Assembly: GCA_018830105.1 (NCBI GenBank)
Contig: JAHJTC010000022.1
Coordinates: 124,001 to 188,000, forward strand
DNA: 64,000 bases
DNA from: Bacteroidota bacterium
Lineage (GTDB): Bacteria; Bacteroidota; Bacteroidia; Bacteroidales; F082
Reading direction: 5' to 3'
A program made the position numbers and the translations under genes. Shown piece by piece: positions 30,323 through 41,355 of this stretch. The notes beneath the pieces are model-generated. The model was not told the DNA's origin. It saw nothing but the letters and a program-made list of their open reading frames with translations, and searched no databases. How positions within the stretch are numbered: position 1 is the first letter of the stretch; each line of letters starts with the position of its first letter.

Positions 30323-31783
30323 TTACATTTTCACCCACCTCCCGTTTTCCAGCAAACCCGTGTCAGCGCTTAGCCTGTAGATGTAGGTGCCGGAAGGCAA
30401 ATGATCCACAGCTATGCGGCTTTCCTTTTGGTGGAGTTGTTGGCTGAGCAAGAGCCTGCCATTGGCATCAAAAAGCTCGAGCAGGGTTGTGGGGTGCTGC
30501 ACGGCCAGTCGTATCTGCAGGGCATCCGTGCCTGGGTTGGGATATACGATGGCTTCGTGCATGTGGGTTTCGGGCAGTTCGTGGTCTCCTACCAGCAGGC
30601 CTTCGCTGTTAAGTTTGAGCACGATAATATCGGTTTGTGGCACGGGATCGTTCATATAATCGTAGCGTGTGCCTGCTACCAGGCAGCCGCCATCGCGTGT
30701 GGCGATAAGTTTTTGCATCACATAATAGGCATCACCTCCATAGAAGCGTTCCCATCTCACATTTAGCAGGCTATCGGTCTGAAACAGCATAAACCAGGAG
30801 GGCTGGTTGGAATGGTAAATATTGTATTTGTCCAGATTGCGTGTACCGCCTACAAAAACAGAATCTTTGTTCTTAAAATCAAGCCCGTTTCGTAAGGAAG
30901 GATAATCAGTAGTATCCGATATTTTCAGGATGTTTGTCTGATATCCGCTTGTATCAATGGGATGAAAAAACCTAAGCAGGGATAAATTATAGTTTGGTGG
31001 AGGATAGAGATTATAACCCAAAAGATAAAAGCTGGTATCGGTGTCCCATTTTACGGAATAATTACCGAAAGTAAAATCTGGCACATTGATAGTTTCTACC
31101 TAACTAAGCAAACTATCAAGAATAGAGATTTCGGTAATAACCTCCTCAATCACCCAATAATTATTATTTGATAGGTTTCTAAAGTGAGAAATTACAACAT
31201 CCCCCTCAAATGAATTGAATTTGATGCTGTCAAGTGATTGATTCATTATCAATACAAAACTATGTCTTTCTTCAGCCATTGGGCCATGATAATATCCACC
31301 ACTAATAAGAAATTGGTTATTATTACCTAAAAACGAATGTAAATTGATCAAACGTTCTTCATCAGGCAAATCGATCGCGGCACTGTCAATAATTGTTAAA
31401 TTTTCATTCAATAAATTAAATATCAAAGTATTATTATCAGAATTATCAGGACTATTTTCAGTTCCAGCTAAAAGAATAGTACCTACATCAGTAAGATGAA
31501 TATTATAAAAGACTTTACTCTTACTTATGTGAGAATATGTCATAGTGTCCAAAATATCGCCCATTTGATTCAATTTACCAAGAATCGTATGTTTTTGATC
31601 ACTAGATACTTGATTGCTTGAAATTGTTAAATATACATTTCCAGAATTATCTTCGATCATGTCGGTAAGTGTCAAGTTATTACCATTTTCGAGAACAAAC
31701 TCAAAGGTCTTATTCTGGCAATAAATACCATAGTTCGCAAAAGATAATATGAACAAAGTAAAAATAAAGAATGGATTCTTCAT
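30323..31783 (-). pseudogene. T9SS-exported paralogue A, split by an in-frame TAG
   Basis: The gene starts at ATG 31783 with a signal peptide (MKNPFFIFTLFILSF) and would be 486 residues, the same as its neighbour. An amber codon at 31100-31102 interrupts the frame where the neighbour has lysine (LTK-I versus LS-stop-V). The frame continues without shift to a T9SS type A tail with YPNPGTDALQIRL and a final WVKM. The N-terminal product (227 residues) would lack the tail and so not be exported by T9SS. A GTG at 31084 could restart the second half but lacks a signal peptide. It lies 10 bp downstream of paralogue B. Confidence 0.88.
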
Positions 31784-31793
31784 GGTAAATTTC

Positions 31794-33254
31794 TTACAAT
31801 TTCACCCATTTCCCTTTTTCCAGCAAACCCGTATCAGCACTCAAACTGTAAATGTAGGTGCCAGAAGGTAAATGATCCACAGCTATGCGGCTTTCTTTTT
31901 GGTGGAGTTGTTGGCTGAGCACGAGCCTGCCGTTGGCATCAAACAACTCAAGCAGGGCCGTGGGGTGTTGCACGGCCAGTCGTATCTGCAGGGCATCCGT
32001 GCCGGGATTGGGATATACGATGGCTTCGTGCATACGGGTTTCGGGCAGTTCGTGGTCTCCTACCAGCAGGCCTTCGCTGTTGAGCTTGAGCACGATAATA
32101 TCGGTTTGTGGCTCTGGATTATTCATATAATCGAAGCGTGTGCCTGCTATCAGGCAGCCGCCATCGTGTGTGGCGATCAGGTTTCGCATTACATAATAGG
32201 CATCTCCTCCATAAAAGCGTTCCCATCTTACATTTAATTGGCTATCTGTTTGAAACAGCATAAACCAGGATGGCTGGTTAGAAAAATATGGGTTAGTAGG
32301 ATTTAAATTTCTTGTGCCTCCGGCAAATACGGTATCATTCGTAATAAAGTCAACACCTCCTCTTACACAAGGATGATCAGTTGTATCAGACACCTTAAGG
32401 AGATTTAACTGATATCCGGCAGTGTCAATGGGATGATAAAACCTAAGCAGGGCTATATTATCATTTGGATGAGGATACAGGTTGCCTCCCAACAGATAAA
32501 AGCTGGTATCAGTATCCCACTTCACAGAATAGTCTCCAAAAATGAAATCAGGGACATCTATTATTTTAATCTTTGTTAGTGTACTATCTAAAAGGCAAAT
32601 ATCCCTGGCAACTTCTTCAATCACCCAATATTGATTATCATCGAGTTGTTTGAAGAACGAAATCCCTATATAGCCTTCAAATTCATTGAATCCTATACTA
32701 TCCATTTCTTCATTGAGAATCATCACAAAGCTATGACGCTCAGAAAATAAACCTCCAGTATAATAACTACCACTTAACAGGAGTTGTCCATTCTTCTCGT
32801 AGTTTGAATATATGGTACGGTATTTTTCATTTGGTGGCAAATAATATTTAGCTGAATCAATGATTGCTAAATTGCTGTTGATAAAATATACAAGGATTGT
32901 TATATTATTTTCTGTATCAGGATCAAATTCCACACCGGTTAAGATAAATACACCAGGTTCTTTCTCATGAATATTGTATAATCTCCTGGTTTTATCAGGA
33001 CTAGCCAGCCTTAAAGTGTCTAATAATTCTCCCTGCGCATTCATCCGACCCACAAGAGCATCTTGTTTTGTTTTGTTTACCTTGTTGCTGATAACAGTAA
33101 AATACACTATGCCACTACTGTCTTCGACCATATCAGTAAACATTAAATTATCGCCATTACCTATGATAACCTCAAAAGCCTTGTCCTGCGAAAAAAGTTG
33201 ACCTGAGAAATACAACACAATAAAAAAAACAAAAAATGATTTAATCTTTTTCAT
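31794..33254 (-). CDS. T9SS-exported surface protein, paralogue B
   Basis: This intact 486-residue protein has a signal peptide (MKKIKSFFVFFIVLYFSGQLFSQ). A beta-propeller-like body contains repeated D-x-SG-x-V-Y and FVMILNEEMDS-like strands. The C-terminal ~80 residues form a T9SS type A sorting domain starting YPNPGTDALQIRLAVQ and ending in SADTGLLEKGKWVKL. The last ~100 residues differ from paralogue A at only seven positions by eye, while the N-terminal halves differ much more. No enzymatic motif is seen. Confidence 0.85.
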   Translation of the reverse strand: MKKIKSFFVFFIVLYFSGQLFSQDKAFEVIIGNGDNLMFTDMVEDSSGIVYFTVISNKVNKTKQDALVGRMNAQGELLDTLRLASPDKTRRLYNIHEKEPGVFILTGVEFDPDTENNITILVYFINSNLAIIDSAKYYLPPNEKYRTIYSNYEKNGQLLLSGSYYTGGLFSERHSFVMILNEEMDSIGFNEFEGYIGISFFKQLDDNQYWVIEEVARDICLLDSTLTKIKIIDVPDFIFGDYSVKWDTDTSFYLLGGNLYPHPNDNIALLRFYHPIDTAGYQLNLLKVSDTTDHPCVRGGVDFITNDTVFAGGTRNLNPTNPYFSNQPSWFMLFQTDSQLNVRWERFYGGDAYYVMRNLIATHDGGCLIAGTRFDYMNNPEPQTDIIVLKLNSEGLLVGDHELPETRMHEAIVYPNPGTDALQIRLAVQHPTALLELFDANGRLVLSQQLHQKESRIAVDHLPSGTYIYSLSADTGLLEKGKWVKL

Positions 33255-37216: not shown

Positions 37217-37237
37217 TAAAGGACAAAAAGGTCTTTA
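37217..37237. promoter_or_regulatory. Candidate operator upstream of scdA (TAAAGGAC-N5-GGTCTTTA)
   Basis: An imperfect 21-bp inverted repeat that recurs, with one base changed, upstream of nirK at 38476-38496. It lies just upstream of a -7 box and overlaps the place where the -33 element would be, so a bound repressor would block the promoter. The Rrf2 regulator encoded at 38014 is the obvious candidate; this is inference. Confidence 0.7.
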
Positions 37238-37253
37238 TATATACTATTTAATG

Positions 37254-37261
37254 TATCTTTG
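37254..37261 (+). promoter_or_regulatory. -7 promoter box (TATCTTTG) for scdA
   Basis: It matches TAnnTTTG, 17 bp downstream of the candidate operator and 27 bp upstream of the gene. Confidence 0.6.
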
Positions 37262-37287
37262 CATCGTAAATCTAAAATAATACTAAG

Positions 37288-38004
37288 ATGCAAAACATAA
37301 AAGACTTAACAATAGCCGAGATTGTGGCCAAGGATTTTCGCACCTCGGATGTGTTTCGAAAACATCAGATAGATTTCTGCTGCGGTGGCAAAATCAGTTT
37401 GCTCGACGCAAAACAACAATATGGTATTGAGCCTGAAACACTCTTTAATGAAATCACTGAAGTTTTAAACTCAAGTGCAAGTACAGCTCATGCTTACAAT
37501 GATTGGGAACTGGATTTTCTGGCCGACTTTATCGAGCGCACCCATCATCAGTTCGTTCGCAAGGAAATACCTGTTTTGGAAGCTTATCTGAGCAAAATTG
37601 CAGATGTTCACGGAGACAACCATCCTGAACTTCATGAAGTAAAATCCTTGTTTCATGCGTCGGCCAACGCTTTGCTGGATCATCTTGAAGAAGAAGAAAA
37701 CCTGCTTTTCCCAAAAATACGTTTATTGGTAAAAGCCGGAAAGCCGGAAAATGGAGTAAAGCCAGAGCAGCTTGATCAGACTATAATTAAGCTTGTAGGT
37801 GAGCACGAAACAGAAGGCGATCGTTTCAAGGAAATTGCAAAGCTTACTGCACAATACAGCATTCCCGAAGATGCCTGCAACACTTATATGGTAGCCATTT
37901 CGAAGCTTGATGCTTTTGAAAAAGATTTGCACCAGCACATTCATCTCGAAAATAATATTCTGTTTCCCAAGGCTATTGCATTGGAATCACTAATTTTGCC
38001 ATAA
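37288..38004 (+). CDS. scdA: Iron-sulfur cluster repair di-iron protein (RIC / ScdA / YtfE)
   Basis: It repairs iron-sulfur clusters damaged by nitric oxide or oxidants, in the cytoplasm. The N-terminal DUF542 domain has the hallmark HQIDFCCGG (Cys31-Cys32). The rest is a hemerythrin-like four-helix bundle with iron ligands in ERTHHQF, HGDNHPE, LLDHLEEEENLLFP, GEHETEGD and HIHLENNILFP. It is 238 residues long. It lies 9 bp upstream of an Rrf2 regulator gene and shares an operator-like repeat with nirK. Confidence 0.95.
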   Translation: MQNIKDLTIAEIVAKDFRTSDVFRKHQIDFCCGGKISLLDAKQQYGIEPETLFNEITEVLNSSASTAHAYNDWELDFLADFIERTHHQFVRKEIPVLEAYLSKIADVHGDNHPELHEVKSLFHASANALLDHLEEEENLLFPKIRLLVKAGKPENGVKPEQLDQTIIKLVGEHETEGDRFKEIAKLTAQYSIPEDACNTYMVAISKLDAFEKDLHQHIHLENNILFPKAIALESLILP

Positions 38005-38013
38005 CACAATCAC

Positions 38014-38457
38014 ATGTTTTCAAAAGCTTGTAAATACGCCATCAGGTCATTAATTTATTTGGCCAGCCGCTCCGGAGAGCCTGAAAAAACAGGTCTTCGG
38101 GAGATTGCTGCTGAAATAGATTCGCCAGTGGCTTTTACGGCTAAAATCATGCAGATTCTGAGCAAGCAAAATCTGGTTAATTCTGCGAAAGGGCCGCATG
38201 GAGGGTTTTATATCGATACGCATGCTCCCGAAATAAAACTTATTGAGGTGGTAAAAGCCATTGATGGCACGCAAAGTATTTATGGCTGCGGGTTGGGTCT
38301 GAATTCCTGTTCCGAAAGTCAGCCTTGTCCCATACATCATGAGTTTTCGACTATTCGGGATGGACTTGCAAATTTGCTGAATGAACAAACGATTCAGCAG
38401 TTGGCCCGCGAACTCAAAGAAGGAAAATCAGTACTCAAACATCATCAGCTTTATTAA
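38014..38457 (+). CDS. Rrf2-family regulator with an Fe-S-type cysteine triad
   Basis: The 147-residue winged-helix regulator starts MFSKACKYAIRSLIYLA. The helix-turn-helix reads GLREIAAEIDSPVAFTAKIMQ, and the wing contains KGPHGGFYI. Three cysteines (92, 99 and 105; C-x6-C-x5-C) sit where NsrR and IscR bind an iron-sulfur cluster. Its place between an NO-damage repair gene and a nitrite reductase suggests a nitric-oxide sensor like NsrR. It probably controls the paired 21-bp repeats and its own operon. Confidence 0.9.
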   Translation: MFSKACKYAIRSLIYLASRSGEPEKTGLREIAAEIDSPVAFTAKIMQILSKQNLVNSAKGPHGGFYIDTHAPEIKLIEVVKAIDGTQSIYGCGLGLNSCSESQPCPIHHEFSTIRDGLANLLNEQTIQQLARELKEGKSVLKHHQLY

Positions 38458-38475
38458 TTTTTTTTTTGATCCATT

Positions 38476-38496
38476 TAAAGGATAAAAAGGTCTTTA
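38476..38496. promoter_or_regulatory. Candidate operator upstream of nirK (TAAAGGAT-N5-GGTCTTTA)
   Basis: It differs from the repeat upstream of scdA in one of 21 positions and lies 20 bp before the nirK start codon. No good TAnnTTTG box is seen between it and nirK, so the promoter may overlap the repeat itself. Confidence 0.7.
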
Positions 38497-38515: not shown

Positions 38516-39967
38516 ATGAAAACCAAAAACTTTTTCTATATAATCATATTGTTGCTGGCCGTATCAGGCTATAGTTGCACGGAACAACAGCCTGAGCGCA
38601 CCATTGTGGATGCAGAACAGGAGGTAAAAGGACATGTAAGGGCAGTACTTACCGATGCTCCTCAGGTGCCTCCTCGAATTACCAATAAATCCAATACCAA
38701 AGTAATCGTAGAGCTGGAAGTCATTGAAAAACAGATGCGCCTGGCAGATGGTGTGGAATACACCTTTTGGACGTTTGGCGGTCAGGTGCCCGGAAAATTT
38801 ATCCGGGTGCGTCAGGGTGATCTTGTCGAATTCCATCTGCATAATCATCCCGATAATATGCTGCCGCATAATATCGACCTTCATGCCGTTACAGGCCCGG
38901 GCGGCGGGGCAGAAGCCTCTTTGATCGCACCAGGCAAAAGTGCGCAGTTTAGTTTCAGAGCACTCAATCAGGGATTGTATGTGTATCACTGCGCCACAGC
39001 ACCGGTTGGCATGCATATTGCCAATGGCATGTACGGTTTGATTTTGGTTGAACCTCTCGAAGGTCTGCCGCCTGTTGATCACGAATTTTATGTGATGCAG
39101 GGCGAGTTTTATACCAGCGGATCTTACGGCGAAAAAGGACATCAGGATTTTGACATGCAAAAAGCCATCGATGAACACCCTGACTATGTGGTGATGAATG
39201 GCGCCGTTGGAGCTTCGTCGGGTGAGAATGCCATGATGGTTCAGGTAGGCGAAACTGTCCGTCTGTTCATGGGCAATGGCGGACCAAATCTTGTTTCGTC
39301 CTTTCATGCTATTGGCGAAATCTTCGACAAGGTTTATGTCGAAGGCGGATCGCTGATCAATCATGATGTACAAACCACGCTGATTCCGGCAGGTGGATCG
39401 GCTATTGTGGAGTTTAAATGCGAAGTTCCGGGTACCCTGCATTTGGTTGATCACAGTATTTTCAGGGCATTCAATAAAGGTGCGCTGGCGCAGATCAAAG
39501 TAGTGGGCGACGAAAATCACAATGTATATACGGGCAAAGAAAAGGAAGAGGTTTATTTGCCTGAGGGTTCGGCTATTCAAACAATTAGCCAAAATAAAAC
39601 GCAAAAATCCACAAAACCGATTGCCGAAAAGAGCTTTGAAGAACGCATGGAAGCCGGGGAATCGCTCTACAAGCAAAACTGTATGGCCTGTCATATGGAT
39701 CATGGCAATGGCATTGCGGGTACCTTCCCGCCACTCGTAAATTCCGACTTTCTACAAGCCCGCGATGATAAGGGAATCGGAATTATTCTGAACGGATTAC
39801 AAGGTGAAATCACCGTAAAAGGCACGAATTATAATAACATCATGCCGGCTGTTTCCTTATCTGATGATCAGGTTGCCAGTATTTTAACCTATATCCACAA
39901 CAAGTTTGAAAATGACGGAGGCTTGGTAAAAGCCGCTGATGTTGATAGCTGGAGAAAACAACAATAA
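38516..39967 (+). CDS. nirK: Copper-containing nitrite reductase with C-terminal cytochrome c domain
   Basis: NirK reduces nitrite to nitric oxide in the periplasm. The 483-residue protein begins with a signal ending in VSGYSC, probably a lipoprotein. Two cupredoxin domains follow. Type 1 copper ligands are His118, Cys159, His167 and Met172; type 2 ligands are His123, His158 and His313. Catalytic Asp121 and His264 are present. Residues ~375-483 form a cytochrome c domain with CMACH at 389-393 and a likely axial Met443 (NIMPA). The fused heme domain can pass electrons straight to the type 1 copper. nirV starts 2 bp downstream. Confidence 0.96.
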   Translation: MKTKNFFYIIILLLAVSGYSCTEQQPERTIVDAEQEVKGHVRAVLTDAPQVPPRITNKSNTKVIVELEVIEKQMRLADGVEYTFWTFGGQVPGKFIRVRQGDLVEFHLHNHPDNMLPHNIDLHAVTGPGGGAEASLIAPGKSAQFSFRALNQGLYVYHCATAPVGMHIANGMYGLILVEPLEGLPPVDHEFYVMQGEFYTSGSYGEKGHQDFDMQKAIDEHPDYVVMNGAVGASSGENAMMVQVGETVRLFMGNGGPNLVSSFHAIGEIFDKVYVEGGSLINHDVQTTLIPAGGSAIVEFKCEVPGTLHLVDHSIFRAFNKGALAQIKVVGDENHNVYTGKEKEEVYLPEGSAIQTISQNKTQKSTKPIAEKSFEERMEAGESLYKQNCMACHMDHGNGIAGTFPPLVNSDFLQARDDKGIGIILNGLQGEITVKGTNYNNIMPAVSLSDDQVASILTYIHNKFENDGGLVKAADVDSWRKQQ

Positions 39968-39968
39968 G

Positions 39969-40736
39969 ATGATCCGTTATTTAGGCAGTTGGATATTGGC
40001 AGGTTTAATTTTGTCGGGGGTGGGGCTTTCGGCTCAGGAAGATATGAGTCTGATACCGGCCGGAAGCTACACTCCCTTCATCAAAGGGATAACTGAAGAG
40101 GTTGAAGTTGAAGGCTTTTTGCTGGACAAGTATGCCGTTACCAATGCCGACTTCCTGGAGTTTGTAAAAGCCAATCCCGATTGGTCGCCCGAAAACGTGA
40201 AATCACTTTTTGCCGATTCCGGATACCTGACGCATTGGCCGGTCAACTATCTTAACGACAAGGATTTGGAAAGTAATATGGAGCCTGTAGTAAATGTATC
40301 ATGGTTTGCCGCCAATGCTTACTGCAAGTGGAAAGGCAAACGCCTGCCCACGCTCCACGAATGGGAATATGCTGCATTGGCGCTTCCCAAAAATGACAGC
40401 GACAGTGCAGCACTTACACGAATCAACAGCGACTGGTACAGCCGTAAAACTGCTGTTCATGCAAAAGTTGGCAGCACTTATGAAAATCAATATGGCGTTT
40501 GGGATATGTACGGCCTGGTTTGGGAATGGGTTGATAATTTCAACACTGTTATTTCCAACGAGGATTCCCGGAACAACGAAGACGCACCCCAAGGCTTGTT
40601 TTGCGGCAGCGCCTCCCTAAATGCCAGCGACGCCAGCGATTATGTGGCGTTTATCAGATTTGCCTATCGTGGAAGCCTTAAAGCAAATTACACCACCCGT
40701 AAAATGGGCTTTCGCTGCGCAAAAACCATTAAATAA
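39969..40736 (+). CDS. nirV: NirV-like formylglycine-generating-enzyme-fold protein
   Basis: The 255-residue exported protein starts at ATG 39969 with a signal peptide (MIRYLGSWILAGLILSGVGLSAQ). The FGE-sulfatase fold is shown by SLIPAGSYTP, LDKYAVTNADFLEFV, PVVNVSWFAANAYCKWKGKRLPTLHEWEYAA-type segments, GLVWEWVDNFN and a final MGFRCAK. NirV proteins of this fold accompany nirK in several denitrifiers; their role is unclear. No catalytic Cys pair typical of true formylglycine enzymes is evident. It is 8 bp upstream of the SCO gene. Confidence 0.88.
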   Translation: MIRYLGSWILAGLILSGVGLSAQEDMSLIPAGSYTPFIKGITEEVEVEGFLLDKYAVTNADFLEFVKANPDWSPENVKSLFADSGYLTHWPVNYLNDKDLESNMEPVVNVSWFAANAYCKWKGKRLPTLHEWEYAALALPKNDSDSAALTRINSDWYSRKTAVHAKVGSTYENQYGVWDMYGLVWEWVDNFNTVISNEDSRNNEDAPQGLFCGSASLNASDASDYVAFIRFAYRGSLKANYTTRKMGFRCAKTIK

Positions 40737-40743
40737 ATGAATT

Positions 40744-41355
40744 ATGAAATCAATTACTTTTCTTCTTTTCGCATTGATACTTTCTTTTTCTGCCTGTAAA
40801 GAACAAGCCGCAGAAAAAAATTCCTGTTGCAGCACTAAACCGGCAATGGCACAAAAAACTTCAGGAGGAATGCCCGAAACATCGCTTTATCAGCTTAATC
40901 AACAATGGAAAAATCAAAACGGAGAGCCCGTTCAGCTCTCTGATTTTAAAGGAAGTCCTGTGGTGATGACCATGATTTTTACCCATTGTGAATATGCCTG
41001 TCCGATGATGGTGAACGATCTGAAAATGGTGGAAGATCAATTTACTGAAAAGCACCAAAATGTAAAATTTGTCCTGATCAGCTTTGATCACGAACGCGAT
41101 ACGCCTGACCGGCTGTTGGAATATGCAAAAACACAGCAGCTAGGCGAAAACTGGGTATTGCTGCATGGCCATGCTGGGAAGGTGAAAGAGCTTGCGATGG
41201 TACTGGATATCAGTTACGAACAACTTGAGAATGGCGCTTTTGCACATGCCAACAAAAAGTTTGTTCTCAATGCACAGGGTGAGCTTGTTTTTTCACAAGA
41301 AGGACTCCAAACCAAGGCTGAGCCTGTGCTGAAGGCACTTAACAAACTGCTGTAA
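40744..41355 (+). CDS. SCO1/SenC-type copper chaperone (lipoprotein)
   Basis: This 203-residue thioredoxin-fold protein delivers copper, usually to cytochrome oxidase; here the partner may be NirK. A lipoprotein signal ends in LSFSAC (Cys19), followed by a Cys-rich stretch (NSCCSTK). The metal motif is FTHCEYACPMM (C-x3-C), and the distal histidine is in GAFAHANKKFVLN. It is the last gene of the nirK-nirV unit, spaced 7 bp from nirV. Confidence 0.92.
   Translation: MKSITFLLFALILSFSACKEQAAEKNSCCSTKPAMAQKTSGGMPETSLYQLNQQWKNQNGEPVQLSDFKGSPVVMTMIFTHCEYACPMMVNDLKMVEDQFTEKHQNVKFVLISFDHERDTPDRLLEYAKTQQLGENWVLLHGHAGKVKELAMVLDISYEQLENGAFAHANKKFVLNAQGELVFSQEGLQTKAEPVLKALNKLL

Follow-up and report, generated by a model that had tools for sequence, protein, structure and literature searches.

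Do two nearly identical inverted repeats, one before scdA and one before nirK with an rrf2 gene between them, serve as operators of a nitric oxide (NO) regulon, and is the Rrf2 protein its regulator? The window, the whole stretch of 64,000 nucleotides that was analysed, belongs to a genome of 3.89 Mb that is 94% complete. Five genes of the locus lie on one strand (+) and were named by family models: scdA (ytfE/RIC; 37288-38004), encoding a di-iron Fe-S cluster repair protein (TIGR03652, 230.8 bits at a cut-off of 204.7; PF04405, PF01814); rrf2 (38014-38457), encoding a predicted Fe-S repressor (PF02082, together with orthologue alignments and a structure model); nirK (38516-39967), encoding a copper nitrite reductase with a C-terminal cytochrome c domain (TIGR02376, 364.4 bits at a cut-off of 296.3; PF00034); a nirV-like gene (39969-40736) for a protein of the FGE/sulfatase-modifying-factor fold (PF03781); and a gene (40744-41355; PF02630) for a SCO1/SenC copper protein with a likely role in copper delivery. 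Synteny suggests that the last two are likely members of the nirK operon.

The original prediction described 21-bp repeats at 37217-37237 and 38476-38496 that differ at one of 21 positions and precede scdA and nirK, and this holds. The predicted operator O1, TAAAGGACAAAAAGGTCTTTA, is located 50 bp upstream of the scdA start (37288), ahead of the scdA-rrf2 operon, and its position is kept in relatives; the predicted operator O2, TAAAGGATAAAAAGGTCTTTA, is located 19 bp upstream of the nirK start (38516) and is likewise conserved. The sequences of the relatives revealed a better dyad register than the 21-mer, a 20-mer AAARGAY-N6-RTCYTTW at 37218-37237 and 38477-38496, which is common to the phylum. 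Genome-wide, O1 and O2 are the only perfect matches to the 21-mer. Five further matches have two mismatches, and those with three are at background level; with up to three mismatches allowed, 90 matches compare with 145 for the reversed control, so the loose matches are noise. The symmetric 20-mer with one mismatch allowed is also at background level genome-wide (180 matches, control 230). The core AARGAY-N6-RTCYTT occurs in 12 copies in the whole genome, ten of them intragenic, and the sole intergenic copies are O1 (scdA-rrf2) and O2 (nirK-nirV-sco).

The surroundings of the box were compared in 80 fetched orthologue loci, where genes outside the window were named by BLAST to the window proteins or by reading their translations, without family models. 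Bacteroidales relatives keep the order scdA-rrf2-nirK-nirV-sco. In Flavobacterium rrf2 is followed by an azurin-like gene, norB (in many loci; some lack it) and scdA, with nirK-nirV-sco further along on the opposite strand; here the palindrome is found upstream of norB, scdA and nirK and, as in Cyclobacteriaceae, upstream of rrf2 itself. Algoriphagus and related genera have rrf2-scdA followed by a nosZ cluster, and the gene after rrf2 in Echinicola is hmp, which has the palindrome upstream. The box precedes rrf2 itself and recurs with rrf2 across the phylum, and is in this way linked to the rrf2 gene.

A genome-wide search in relatives added intergenic palindromes before an apparent anaerobic ribonucleotide reductase gene (L170), a DUF438/hemerythrin-like gene (L172) and a cupin gene (L173, also L108), and in L174 one lies before an NrfH-like cytochrome gene divergent from scdA. 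In single genomes the 22-mer also stands in intergenic positions before haemolysin III-like and fasciclin-like genes; the extra 22-mer sites in L170, L172, L171 and L161, which include these, are candidates for added targets or for chance matches. Across 15 relatives' genomes the raw count of the 22-mer was not clearly above that of the reversed control, and several other matches were intragenic. The signal in the relatives resides in position, i.e. in the promoters of NO genes.

When Rrf2 proteins were dereplicated at an identity of 80%, 18 loci with 44 upstream regions were left. The exact palindrome is present in 15 of these 44, compared with a mean of 0.005 in shuffled sequences and of 0.66 when places within these loci were drawn at random, while 300 palindromes with permuted half-sites gave a mean of 0.11 and a maximum of 5. 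When the spacer was scanned from 0 to 12 in the 44 regions, spacer 6 yielded 15 palindromes, spacer 5 yielded one and all others none. A second sample, collected independently of the motif, comprised 24 regions upstream of scdA in further genomes of the order. It contains 11 exact boxes (0.005 expected) and four boxes with one mismatch (0.25 expected); rrf2 usually adjoins scdA in this sample, in several cases with norB too.

Two genomes of this sample that have no normal rrf2 next to scdA also lack a good box. In G118 only a different type of Rrf2 is encoded nearby, and the best box has three mismatches. In G132 (L218/L245) the rrf2 gene beside scdA carries four in-frame stops and the palindrome is degraded, with two mismatches, as though regulator and operator were decaying in parallel. 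Exceptions were observed in both directions. The loci L199-L202 have rrf2 upstream of scdA, yet boxes with two to three mismatches, and L214 has an adjacent rrf2 and no box; since rrf2 is there and a clean box is absent, the motif or the regulator may have diverged in these loci. Conversely, G087 has a box with one mismatch without an adjacent rrf2. With few cases and exceptions both ways, the association of box presence with the regulator is suggestive.

A Bacteroidota-type -7 box of scdA, TATCTTTG, is found at 37254-37261 (+), 16 bp downstream of O1, and this geometry is conserved; the upstream repeat therefore does not abut the -7 box, against which the original prediction had placed it. 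Of 180 operator-gene pairs, mostly from Flavobacterium and not dereplicated, 79 have a TAnnTTTG -7 box that starts 12-16 bp past the operator, while the background for TAnnTTTG anywhere within 45 bp is 3%. As the operator ends 12-16 bp ahead of the -7 box, it would usually, where a -7 box is found, cover the -33 position, the layout expected of a repressor. No TAnnTTTG box was found downstream of O2, and the architecture of the nirK promoter is thus unclear. Taken together, the scarcity of the box in the genome, its conservation throughout the phylum and the repressor-like promoter geometry strongly support the earlier proposal of a shared operator that marks an NO/nitrite regulon tied to rrf2; the palindrome is a real operator, and it very probably defines an NO/nitrite regulon under an Rrf2 repressor that is widespread in Bacteroidota.

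Membership of the regulator in the Rrf2 superfamily is clear from PF02082 (95.3 bits) and TIGR00738 (90.2 bits at a cut-off of 73.3). The monomer model (pLDDT 85.8) matches CymR, NsrR, IscR and RsrR about equally, at Z scores of about 13-15, so fold comparison does not tell the subfamilies apart. In 19 orthologues Cys92, Cys99, Cys105 and His108 are invariant and Cys6 is nearly so, giving the predicted ligand pattern Cys92-x6-Cys99-x5-Cys105-x2-His108. Reference sequences of E. coli NsrR and IscR were taken from an annotated genome. The original prediction had the three cysteines placed as in NsrR; they do align with the cysteines of NsrR, and equally with those of IscR, but the first spacing is longer (C-x6-C-x5-C, compared with C-x4-C-x5-C in NsrR and C-x5-C-x5-C in IscR) and the ligand pattern is closer to the Cys3-His pattern of IscR, as His108 aligns only with the IscR histidine (His107 position). 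In Streptomyces NsrR, Asp8 is the fourth cluster ligand; the corresponding residue is Lys7 in Bacteroidales and a glutamate in Flavobacterium. The family models NF008240 (NsrR; 39.1 bits, cut-off 182) and TIGR02010 (IscR; 55.2 bits, cut-off 207.55) gave scores far too low, and the SUF-regulator model, at 58.8 bits, scored above these two and also remained under its cut-off. Among solved structures, RsrR and IscR are the top sequence matches.

In its Rrf2 fold, its three aligned cysteines and its types of target (hmp, norB, nirK, ytfE/scdA) the protein resembles NsrR, the NO-sensing Fe-S Rrf2 repressor of E. coli, Neisseria and Streptomyces, and the predicted sites before scdA, nirK, norB and hmp correspond to the NO/nitrite genes that an NsrR regulates. 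It differs in sharing only about 24% identity with the E. coli protein, in the invariant His108 and in its operator, AAARGAY-N6-RTCYTTT here and gATGyAT-N5-ATrCATc for NsrR (PMC1274295). Judged by the low family scores, the different operator, the lysine at the Asp8 position and the more IscR-like ligand pattern, it is not a recognised NsrR. It is NsrR-like in its targets, as far as predicted sites tell, and it could respond to NO itself or, more broadly, to cluster damage.

We assign a probability of about 0.7 to the reading that the Rrf2 protein, bound to both repeats as operators, keeps the two operons and its own gene repressed until NO attacks an Fe-S cluster and frees it from the DNA. 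Cys92, Cys99 and Cys105 would bind the cluster, the fourth ligand being His108 (or Cys6), and a dimer on AAARGAY-N6-RTCYTTT would block the -33 region. In NsrR, the [4Fe-4S] cluster reacts with NO and DNA binding is lost. Here, NO made by NirK or coming from outside would nitrosylate the cluster and release the protein, leading to derepression of scdA-rrf2, with cluster repair and autoregulation as the outcome, and of nirK-nirV-sco.

The residues around the presumed cluster, the order of the family scores and the sequence matches among solved structures would also suit a different signal, in which the same Rrf2 protein occupies the same operators and reports Fe-S cluster status, redox or oxygen in the manner of IscR or RsrR, the response to NO being indirect. 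The protein described here shares the Rrf2 fold and the Cys-Cys-Cys-x2-His pattern with IscR and is about 24% identical to E. coli IscR; it differs in failing the IscR model and in its targets. Across the phylum these predicted targets are nitrite and NO genes (nirK, norB, hmp, scdA and the nrfH side), with none of the isc or suf type at the sites examined, which makes an IscR- or RsrR-like signal improbable. The palindrome might instead be bound by another regulator, either a second Rrf2 protein or a Crp/Fnr protein such as HcpR or NnrR, with rrf2 as a mere target. HcpR2 of Bacteroides is a known Crp/Fnr regulator of an NO-related regulon in Bacteroidota, with hcp as its sole target (PMC1274295). 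However, the half-sites of known Crp/Fnr boxes are four bases apart (TTGAC-N4-GTCAA; GTAAC-N4-GTTAC) and not six as found here, box and rrf2 travel together across the phylum, and the only other Rrf2 protein of the genome is a distant paralogue near hcp in a region without an intergenic box. Binding by another regulator is accordingly regarded as distinctly unlikely.

That the repeats are a terminator, an RNA hairpin or a chance repeat and not operators could be argued from the location of O2 between two genes of the same strand and from the frequent loose matches in the genome. In Flavobacterium, however, the box also precedes rrf2 at a place where the neighbouring gene upstream points the other way, and the frequencies of 15/44 and 11/24 against 0.005 each leave this explanation with hardly any credibility. 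Folding as an RNA hairpin or terminator was considered separately and discarded, the fold being no better than that of shuffled sequences (z = 0.52).

If both repeats are operators of the Rrf2 repressor, the extent of the circuit in this genome can be outlined. It had been proposed to be self-contained, and indeed the only two intergenic sites are both at the scdA-rrf2-nirK locus; the additional sites expected at nor, hcp and nos are absent here. NorB was not found in the 94% complete genome by a PF00115 search with positive controls, which returned only two matches of oxidase strength for the haem-copper oxidase family, neither of them scoring like the NorB genes of control genomes; a qNor query alone was uninformative. 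At this completeness the absence is not proof. A match in the NorB range is missing from four of six Bacteroidales relatives too (G001, G002, G004 and G006, which have nirK at the rrf2 locus). If the absence is real, NO made by NirK would derepress nirK plus the repair gene, and its removal would be left to Hcp or another route. nosZ is present and no intergenic box was observed in its region as read; a second NosZ-like neighbour on contig C29 (L132:10230-14896) is below the family cut-off (464 vs 625 bits). Two Rrf2 genes were found in the genome. The second, distant paralogue (C14:84277; L135:2730-6667) has a porin-like gene, hcp and a cupin gene as neighbours, and it possibly belongs to a further NO module that uses an operator of its own. 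In other Bacteroidota, genes of the porin-like and cupin kinds have the palindrome (L174, L108, L173).

Descriptions of NsrR operators and regulons exist for Proteobacteria and Gram-positive bacteria, whereas only HcpR2 with hcp was described for Bacteroides (PMC1274295). Rrf2 genes close to nos clusters of clade II, the type of Bacteroidota, were mentioned in a 2018 survey, which called their role difficult to predict (PMC6264515), and in Bacteroidetes NirV is frequent with nirK, and nirK without nor has been seen before (PMC4770552). A parallel in arrangement is NsrR-Th from the nsrRST cluster of Thermus thermophilus (PMC5748679), whose Rrf2 gene has a ScdA-domain gene and a cupin gene as neighbours; it controls Nir and Nor, lacks the usual fourth ligand of NsrR and binds a palindrome, as is predicted here. 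It differs in its operator, CTTGACC-N2-GGTCATGG, in acting as activator and repressor, and in belonging to a nirS-type denitrifier. Our literature search, which covered mostly papers outside subscription journals, so that an earlier description is possible, returned no Bacteroidota operator of an Rrf2 protein resembling this one. We tentatively consider, with more doubt than confidence, that a separate Bacteroidota subfamily of Rrf2 proteins serves NO/nitrite genes, with an origin independent of NsrR, an operator of its own and an IscR-like Cys3-His (or Cys6-assisted) cluster that senses NO; here and in the nearest relatives it would form a loop of NirK and repair without NorB, in which NO derepresses its own producer. 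Nitrite and NO regulation in Bacteroidota is poorly described, and a defined operator and regulator with stated ligands make the question directly testable. Regulons would become predictable across a phylum rich in carriers of nirK and nosZ, with a bearing on N2O emission.

Elsewhere in the window, on the - strand at 30323-33254, the open reading frames 30323-31084 and 31100-31783 look like the halves of the adjacent 486-residue frame (31794-33254), and the arrangement is, to judge from the reading frames, a broken tandem duplicate.
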